Positions 25,640 through 29,507 of a DNA stretch of 64,000 bases are shown in pieces. Location of the stretch: contig NC_026655.2 in the NCBI RefSeq assembly GCF_000004075.3, positions 5,828,001-5,892,000 on the forward strand, given 5' to 3'. The translations under genes were made by a program, and so were the position numbers. Origin of the DNA: Cucumis sativus. Taxonomy: Eukaryota; Streptophyta; Magnoliopsida; Cucurbitales; Cucurbitaceae. The notes beneath the pieces were generated by a model. It was not told where the DNA came from. It saw nothing but the letters and a program-made list of their open reading frames with translations, and searched no databases. Position 1 is the stretch's first letter. Each line of letters starts with the position of its first letter.

Positions 25640-26700
25640 TTTCTTCACATAATTTTTTTCTTCTTTTTTTGTCTTCCCACAATGTGTGAGGCGGAGAAAC
25701 GAACCTTTGAGATGGGGAATCAAAATCAATAGTGCAAGTTTTATGCGTTGGCGAGTTGTAAATTAGAATTCTATTTAGTTAAGTTATAAATTTAGGCATT
25801 ATAAGAATTTTCTTCTTGATGTAATTGGCTCTTTTAGATTAGATTGAAGTAGGGGTGATAATTAGTTGTCGATCAAATCGTCATCAAGCCGACTATGGTA
25901 GTCTGACCGACTGTCAAGTAAAAAAGATTGATCGGTTGATTTAACTCTAAAATACTTTCTAAAATTTCTTTATTCAAAACTTTTTCAAACTGCTATTCGA
26001 CTCAGTTTTTTACTTTACCTATCATGCTCACTACTAAACTGAAGTAGAATTTAGTGTATATGTTCTCTCCAATTGTTTCTATATTAGTTATAATTTTATA
26101 TAAAACTAACTCAATCCATTTTACTTGATCTTAATTCAAAGTAATAAAAAAGAAAATTGCCAAGAAAGTTTTAACCTCCGACATCAAAGAAAACAAAAAT
26201 CTAATCACATTATCAAAAGATAACTTACAAGTTGTTGGTCCAACAAAATAAGTCGATCGACATAACTTCAATCAAGTCTATTCACCGTTTTTTCTCATAT
26301 GACAATAGCTGCAGAAAACACTACTCTCACTTTTTTGCACACAACTGAAATGAGCACCCAATCAATCATACAAATAAGGTTAGTCCGAAAACAAATCTTC
26401 ACCAACAAGGAAAGAATAATAACAATAAGGAAAAAAAAATCCGAGTGCCGATAGAATATTCTTTAAGAAACTTCCTTTAAACACTATCTTTTTGTCACGT
26501 CATTCCACCGAGAAGAGAACTGAACAAAACAACATTCGTGAGCCCACAAAACTTCTAATACTATATGTTCTAAAGTGTTATGCATTTATAAACTCTTTAG
26601 TTCTAAGTTTGATTTAAATTTAATCTTCAGGTTCTTAAATGTAACAATATTTTAATTGGAATTTGGACAATATAACATACTACACATTGTAACACATTAC
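25640..26700. other. Intergenic region
   Basis: 3' UTR of the 581-aa gene, then AT-rich DNA. Around 25850-26060 it contains CGGTTGATTTAA/GACCGACTG-type sequence also seen around 2440-2640, probably a degenerate dispersed repeat. No reading frame is supported. Confidence 0.5.
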
Positions 26701-26714
26701 AGAGATGCACGAGC

Positions 26715-26830
26715 TATCAACCTTGAAAACATGATTCCATTTGTGTTGTTGGACTATGAGAAAAAAAAATAGTTTAAGAACATGCATCGTTAAAAAAGAT
26801 ATATGTATCAACAAAACTAACATGTACGGT
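26715..26830 (-). pseudogene. Displaced, truncated copy of the NAC repeat exon with its intron
   Basis: On the minus strand this reads GTACATGTTAGTTTTG, an intron tail ending TTTTCTCATAG, then an exon start encoding PTTQMESCFQG followed by a stop. It closely matches the intron and exon starts at 28320-28210, 28560-28465 and 28815-28705 of the NAC gene. It lies about 1.3 kb beyond that gene's stop codon and abuts the leucine-rich-repeat relic, so it is a non-functional ectopic copy. Confidence 0.75.
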
Positions 26831-28081: not shown

Positions 28082-29507
28082 TCATAGTCTGAAATACCAC
28101 TCATTGTCATAATTCAAACCATCTTCAACGTTTGGTAGTTCCCCGTTGTTGCATGGTTCAATTTCATTCTCATTCTCGTTTGCAAATAATAAGTAACCAT
28201 TTGATAAATCTTGAAAACATGATTCTTTTTGTGTGGTTGAACTATGAGAAAACAAAAAAAAAAAAAGTTTAAAAACATGCATCGTTAAAAGAAATGCATA
28301 ATAAAATTAACATGTACTCGTTAGACATGAACAAAATATAAATAAGAATAACTTTAACGATCAAAATTAATTAAAATCGTACTGACCATTCAATAGGAGT
28401 ATTGATGCAACATTCGTTATGTAACTCAACCATGGCTTCATTGGATGCAACATTTGATATAGCTTGAAAACATGATTCCATTTGTGTTGTTGGACTATGA
28501 GAAGAAAAATAGTTTAGGAACATGTATTTTTAAAAAAATGCATCAACAAAATTAACATGTACTTGTTAAACATGATAATTAAAAATAACTTTTAACGATC
28601 AAAATTAATTAAAATTGTACGTACCATTCAGTATGAACATTGATGCAATCTTCATGCTGCAAGTCATCCACAGCTTCATTCGATGCAACATTTGATAAAC
28701 TTTGAAAACATGATGTCATTTGTGTTGTTGGACTATGATAAAAATAAATAAAAAAAAAGTTAATTTAAGAACATGCATTGTGAAAAAAATGCATCAACAA
28801 AATTAACATATACTTGTTAGTTAGACATGAACAAAATATAATAAAAAATAATTTTTAACGATCAAAATTTCTTAAAATTGTACTTACCATCCAATAGTAG
28901 CATCGATGCAATCAACCACAGCTTCCTCTTGTAATTTCATGCGTTTGTGGTTCTGATTATCTACATGCATACTTGTCATTGGCCAATTATTATTTGATGC
29001 TTGTCTTTTGTTTGAGGCCATGACCATTTTTTCTGATTTGACTATCTTTTTCCGAATCATACAAAGCACATAGGAATCATGCACCAACCCTTCTGGTACG
29101 ATAAATGGATTGAGGGTATACTCATACATAATCCATGTACAATCCTCTTTTACTTGAGATTTCTCATATCGAAACCGTTTCATGGTGCCAAGGAGGAGAT
29201 TATCAATAGTTGAAGAAAATACTTGTTGAGGTTTGTTCTCACCGCTCCAAGTGCCACCATTAGAACCAACCTTTCGGATGATACGAGATTTCTTTTTTTG
29301 GAGAGTAGTGAAGAAATAGATATCTTTATTATCAACCCCTCTACATTGTTGCCATATTTGAGAGGGCTCTTGGGTGTAAAGATCGATCACCGGCAACACA
29401 AGTGGAGAAGCTTGTTCTCCCAAAACTTTGCTGTAGAGATAGTAACCCAACAGTTCTTCCTCCGTGGGACAAAAGACGTAACCCACGGGAATCAGGCTCG
29501 GATCCAT
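28082..29507 (-). CDS. Divergent NAC-domain protein with duplicated C-terminal exons (331 aa)
   Basis: Exons (minus): 29507-28888, 28732-28625, 28494-28387, 28241-28082; 996 bases, frame intact. Start chosen at MDPSLIP (29507), just after an acceptor-like TCGAACAGG. The NAC domain spans about residues 7-160: PVGYVFCPTEEELLGYYL (subdomain A, 7-24), DIYFFTTLQKKKSRIIRKVG (62-81), GGTWSG (84-89, cognate of the usual GYWKATG) and WIMYEYTL (125-132). It is therefore a plant transcription factor, but a divergent one. A basic patch NHKRMKLQ may be a nuclear signal. Exons 2 and 3 are each 108 bases and encode near-repeats beginning PTTQM-SCFQ--SNVASNEA; exon 4 starts with a related TTQKESCFQDLSNG and then diverges. 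The C-terminal region thus arose by tandem exon duplication. Expression and DNA binding are not shown. Confidence 0.8.
28387..28888 (-). repeat. Tandem exon-intron array in the NAC gene
   Basis: Units of about 240-260 bases, each an intron plus a 108-base exon, repeat along the minus strand. Exon ends lie at 28888, 28625 and 28387, and each donor is followed by a similar ATTTTGATCGTTAAAA-type intron start. Because the exon length is a multiple of three, adding or losing a unit keeps the reading frame. Confidence 0.85.

Follow-up and report, generated by a model that had tools for sequence, protein, structure and literature searches.

The closest described systems to the gene analyzed here are genes with tandem exon duplications (PMC9013439, PMC9741552), with which it shares adjacent homologous exons, homologous introns, and matching phase. 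The abstracts of both papers stress exons that are mutually exclusive, whereas the modules of the present gene would be additive and lie in a divergent tail, and the genome contains, at another place, an array of 21 copies of the repeated unit. A second precedent is a plant gene in which a tandem duplication across an intron-exon boundary brought splice signals along, as each unit does here; that event, as described, gave one new intron, but in our case whole exon-plus-intron units are repeated, and this state is common to paralogs.

For cucumber itself, a survey of the NAC family (PMC5981648) covers 91 genes and describes their exon numbers. Passages of that survey mention no exon duplication, and its main text has "tandem" 0 times and "duplicat" once, for a segmental duplication in rice. 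Among the listed matches in an open-licence library, judged by title and the first part of the abstract, no report of repeated tail exons in a NAC gene was found. Measured against these sources, exon-unit duplication is a known process, and its setting in a NAC tail and the escaped array are new.

Exon units of the window gene

The window, that is, the whole stretch of 64,000 nucleotides that was analyzed, is C1:5828001-5892000 of Cucumis sativus (NC_026655.2), and it was compared with a genome of 226.6 Mb in 88 contigs. On its minus strand lies a NAC gene with predicted exons of 620, 108, 108, and 160 nt, the last including the stop codon:

28888..29507, minus strand: exon 1, with the complete NAC (NAM) domain and the linker in one exon; its end is a partial module
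28733..28887, minus strand: intron 1, 155 nt, phase 2, 82% AT; homologous to introns 2 and 3
28625..28732, minus strand: exon 2, 108 nt, a 36-residue module that begins CPTTQMTSCFQ
28495..28624, minus strand: intron 2, 130 nt, phase 2, 79% AT
28387..28494, minus strand: exon 3, 108 nt, a 36-residue module that begins CPTTQMESCFQ
28242..28386, minus strand: intron 3, 145 nt, phase 2, 78% AT
28082..28241, minus strand: exon 4 (terminal), with the module start STTQKESCFQ followed by an acidic end; stop codon at 28084-28082

The three introns have GT-AG borders, with the donors GTAAGT, GTACGT, and GTCAGT and with acceptors that all end in CATAG. All junctions are in phase 2, and at each of them the window copy reads TG|T (Cys). 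If the transcript is spliced as drawn, the joined frame is open and would give a protein of 331 aa. Two consecutive 108-base exons encoding 36-residue modules had been predicted at 28625-28732 and 28387-28494, and both coordinates and splice sites were borne out, as was the proposal that the unit is a multiple of three (108 + 108 nt) with matching phases.

The modules had also been called near-identical, which was too strong: exons 2 and 3 agree in 88 of 108 bases, i.e., 81% in DNA. Their homology is nevertheless clear, with a local score of 136, whereas 500 dinucleotide shuffles reached at most 41. The intervening introns are homologous as well, as expected from the original prediction; intron pairs 1-2, 2-3, and 1-3 scored 168, 157, and 184, and the highest scores among 300 shuffles per pair were 66, 66, and 69. 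Since no shuffle score came near these values, chance similarity of the exons and introns is ruled out. The partial module matches that had been proposed at either end of the tail were found, too: within the last 60 bases of exon 1 lies a partial match that is 67% identical to exon 2 and 72% identical to exon 3 (means over three paralogs), and the start of exon 4 matches the module over about 44 bases. Near the end of exon 1, 15 in-frame bases that are present in two paralogs (L010 and L011, see below) are missing from the window copy. Because exons 2 and 3 and the three introns are both homologous, the repeated unit is exon plus intron and has about 240 bp. Adjacent exons that are homologous beyond chance, homologous introns, and a frame-neutral unit are, at the level of the sequence, tandem exon duplication.

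NAC identity and paralogs

Exon 1 matches the Pfam profile PF02365 (NAM) over positions 1-122 of 122 with an E value of 6.6e-25 and 88.4 bits (gathering cut-off, 27), and among solved NAC chains in the PDB it matched NAC92 (E value, 4.7e-10; query residues 6-151) and NAC19 (E value, 3.6e-9; query residues 6-157). In the complete 331-aa product, Pfam gave the NAM domain and no other domain at E values up to 10. The gene thus has the full-length NAM match, the N-terminal position of the domain, and the variable C-terminal tail of the family, but it differs from it in the split of the tail into repeated exon units and in one motif. NAC proteins usually contact DNA with WKATG; the window protein has WSGEN instead (TWSGENK), a difference that is visible in the alignment with the PDB chains.

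A search of the genome with the exon 1 protein gave 23 matches, six of which, the window gene included, cover at least 202 of the 206 residues. Two are close paralogs, L010 (C1:18.9 Mb; 94% identity over the exon 1 protein) and L011 (C3:29.3 Mb; 95%). The other three are distant relatives with 53 to 55% identity: L059 (C1:14.89 Mb), whose match is free of stops, and L060 (C7:0.92 Mb) and L061 (C3:5.6 Mb), which have one TAG and one TGA, respectively, inside the NAC domain match and are probably pseudogenes. The next three matches, L019 among them, are only 40 to 42% identical over about 107 residues, and the tail of L019, read by eye, is unsplit. The WSGEN type of motif recurs as TWSGESK in L059 and, read by eye, as TWSGENS in L019, and therefore it is probably a trait of the subfamily. 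This motif makes canonical DNA contacts less certain; NAC membership rests on the profile match. In the window gene one exon encodes the NAC domain; in the outgroup L019 the match falls into two pieces separated by a gap. As a side observation, a single-exon NAC domain with WSGEN or WSGES is seen in the window gene, L010, L011, and L059, and the gap in L019 is an intron inside the domain.

The layout of the window gene recurs in both close paralogs, with exons of 635, 108, 108, and 160 nt and the same phases, and the four-exon frame is open in all three copies when the exons are joined at the aligned borders. Eight of the nine donors after exons 1 to 3 are GT. The exception is the third donor of L010, which is broken (ATGTGT) and leads to an in-frame TGA; skipping of exon 3 would keep the frame. 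Downstream of their NAC domains, L059, L060, and L061 can each be aligned with the part of the L011 tail that starts at the end of intron 2, and every one of these DNA alignments outscores all 200 shuffles. With borders set by eye, L059 can be drawn with exons of 731, 54, and 103 nt; both introns are then in phase 2, the 54-nt middle exon is frame-neutral, and the second junction reads C|PTMETEAPEQ, with C|PT as in the window gene. Since the split phase-2 layout can be drawn in L059, a split tail with phase-2 junctions is probably older than the close clade. The two 108-nt exons arose by a doubling that took place before the three close copies parted, because the units group by position across the copies (support of 1.00, 0.995, and 0.957). 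The predicted in-frame tandem exon duplication in a divergent NAC gene is upheld by the sequence, by the layout of the two close paralogs, and by the matching phases with which L059 can be drawn. That copy number can change is supported between loci, with one middle exon in L059, two in the close copies, and 21 units in the array. The proposed length polymorphism within the species and the proposed regulatory role of the tail are hypotheses.

Constraint on the tail and further copies of the unit

In a three-way alignment of the close copies, the 376 nt of tail exon contain 0 gaps, compared to 16 gap runs in the 430 nt of intron; exon 1 has 3 gap runs, all multiples of three. At the intron rate, finding no tail gap has a Poisson chance of 8e-7; this becomes 9e-4 if the count is limited to the 8 intron runs that, by visual judgment, are not in homopolymer tracts. 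The introns are richer in T-tracts than the exons, so this contrast in indels is inflated. We also compared substitution rates in the three pairs of close copies, which are non-independent and in which the L010 pairs were counted as if exons 3 and 4 were still joined. The NAC domain (codons 1 to 160) has omega values of 0.29, 0.26, and 0.30 (p = 0.015, 0.003, and 0.037) and is under purifying selection. For the tail (exons 2 to 4), the values were 0.63, 0.71, and 1.56, which are not different from 1 (p = 0.28, 0.34, and 0.48), and therefore the tail residues may be near neutral. Among the tail exons, exon 4 has nominally the lowest omega (0.43 to 0.51). The values of exons 2 and 3 spread between 0.36 and more than 1, and the L010-L011 pair has zero synonymous changes in exon 3. 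In each of the three pairs, the nonsynonymous divergence of the tail exceeds that of the NAC domain (p = 1e-4, 6e-3, and 8e-5). The tail is strongly acidic, with 22 D+E versus 2 K+R among the 125 residues of the window copy, 32 of which are F, W, Y, L, I, V, or M; the respective acidic and basic counts are 21 and 4 in L010 and 21 and 1 in L011. Acidity and the omega pattern together fit a tail that needs an open frame and acidic character rather than exact letters, but early decay fits, too.

A search of the genome with a single unit found the three genes and a dense cluster at C1:23.44-23.45 Mb, which a profile search resolved into 21 units in about 4.8 kb:

C1:23444408-23449200 (L009:2908-7700), 18 units forward and 3 inverted: decayed array of the unit

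None of the 23 matches of the exon 1 protein search is a NAC exon at this array. Eleven of the 21 units contain a stop or have a length that is no multiple of three; the aligned donor is GT in 13, and 5 units are both open and equipped with a GT donor. The exon parts are less alike than the intron parts (79% versus 84%), and therefore nothing visibly protects them now. The NAC units group apart from the array units with a support of 0.95 in a FastTree phylogeny whose array part is poorly resolved. A higher-order structure, with units 05-07 resembling the inverted units 21r-19r and unit 09 resembling unit 17, is suggestive only: units 07 and 19r are reciprocal best matches, whereas the pairs 06-20r, 05-21r, and 09-17 are only second- or third-best. 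A 50-base match at C6:13.17 Mb was dropped, as the unit profile finds nothing in the surrounding 8 kb at an E value of 1e-3.

The flanks of the array are part of a dispersed repeat; partial copies of it lie on several contigs, including C2, C3, and C7, and the C7 copy has about 0.9 kb of other sequence where the array stands. The left edge of the repeat, CACTACAACAAA at L009:2369, coincides with the left edge of the match to the C2 copy. The match to the C7 copy starts one base in, where that copy reads TACTACAACAAA with CAC before it. We take this left end to be CACTA-like. An inverted copy of the 32-base left end was not found within 9 substitutions in 28 kb, nor was the right end found.

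One more unit lies downstream of the window gene:

26716..26827, minus strand: decayed extra unit, consisting of 74 nt of intron 3' end, a CATAG acceptor, and 38 nt from the start of a module exon, outside any NAC context

The extent of the units had been predicted correctly inside the interval 28082..28888, but this unit falls outside it. Outside its own locus, the genome sequence most similar to it is part of the 21-copy array (91%), followed by L010 (89%), and the unit starts right after 27157-26832, a stretch that is 91.8% identical to C3:29322176-29322503. Relative to the rest of the shared block, this counterpart is shifted by some 2 kb in the downstream direction from the C3 paralog. 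Window positions 26400-26558 are a piece of a dispersed repeat, which was matched on C1, C2, C4, C5, and C7.

Explanations for the repeated tail

At a probability of roughly 0.6, we read the window gene as a protein-coding, divergent NAC-type transcription factor gene of a small subfamily, with an acidic, length-tolerant, and probably activating tail that grows by duplication of exon units. Unequal crossing-over between units of about 240 bp would add or remove 36 residues per step, and the frame would be undisturbed by such gains and losses because every junction is in phase 2. Since the modules are acidic, a transcription-activating region is the most likely function of the tail. Additional modules would then add to activation, and the general character of the region rather than its exact sequence would be kept. 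Against this reading stand the near-neutral omega of the tail, the lost donor of L010, the inflation of the indel contrast by T-tracts, and the stops in the NAC domain of two of the three distant relatives. A bolder extension, which we consider improbable, would make each 240-bp unit a self-terminating, countable cassette, in which an acceptor precedes 36 acidic residues and these are followed by a donor and, soon after it, an in-frame stop, so that a usable tail would result after gain, loss, or skipping of any unit or an end on it. The number of modules, set by unequal crossing-over and splicing, might then tune activation strength like a heritable dial, and the cassette would also have spread as a transposon-borne 21-copy array.

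Three further explanations have to be weighed. The NAC exon alone might be the working gene, with transcripts that stop soon after exon 1 and tail units that are drifting, decaying repeats. This is unlikely but deserves to be taken seriously, given a tail omega that is not different from 1, the broken donor after exon 3 of L010, and the read-through of window intron 1, which gives ...ATIGW and a stop at once. Against it stand the 376 nt of tail exon free of gaps in three copies, the GT at eight of nine donors after exons 1 to 3, and the frame-neutral phase-2 middle exon that can be drawn in the distant, intact L059 as well. It is more doubtful still that each unit serves as an optional ending and that splicing or retention yields tails of varied length with a similar C terminus. 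Retention of intron 2 does end the protein in EWYVQF in all three copies (TEWYVQF in the window), close to the EWYFRL in which exon 4 ends in all three, and read-through of intron 1 ends in GWYVQF in two of them. However, the donor consensus GGTAYGT underlies the shared ending and explains part of it without selection, intron 1 of the window gene yields GW only, read-through of intron 3 gives three different endings (EWSVRF, EWYV, and E), and retention in the distant relative L059 gives others.

The unit could also have been a satellite or a transposon-borne repeat that was taken into a NAC gene rather than a part of a gene that escaped. An array of 21 units that has no match to the NAC exon and lies within a dispersed repeat whose left edge is CACTA-like speaks for such an origin, but we regard this origin as very unlikely: the distant NAC relatives already have related tail sequence, 11 of the 21 array copies are broken, their exon part is kept no better than their intron part, and the C7 copy of the host repeat holds other sequence at the position of the array. 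A satellite that merely overlies the NAC gene was set aside because the distant relatives share the related tail sequence.

Transcription factor tails change quickly in evolution, and it is rarely possible to count the steps. In this family the steps would be whole, frame-neutral units whose number varies between loci of one genome, and therefore the link between tail length and activation strength may be directly measurable. Moreover, the decayed 21-copy array indicates that, after leaving its gene, a unit of exon plus intron can take on the behavior of a satellite.
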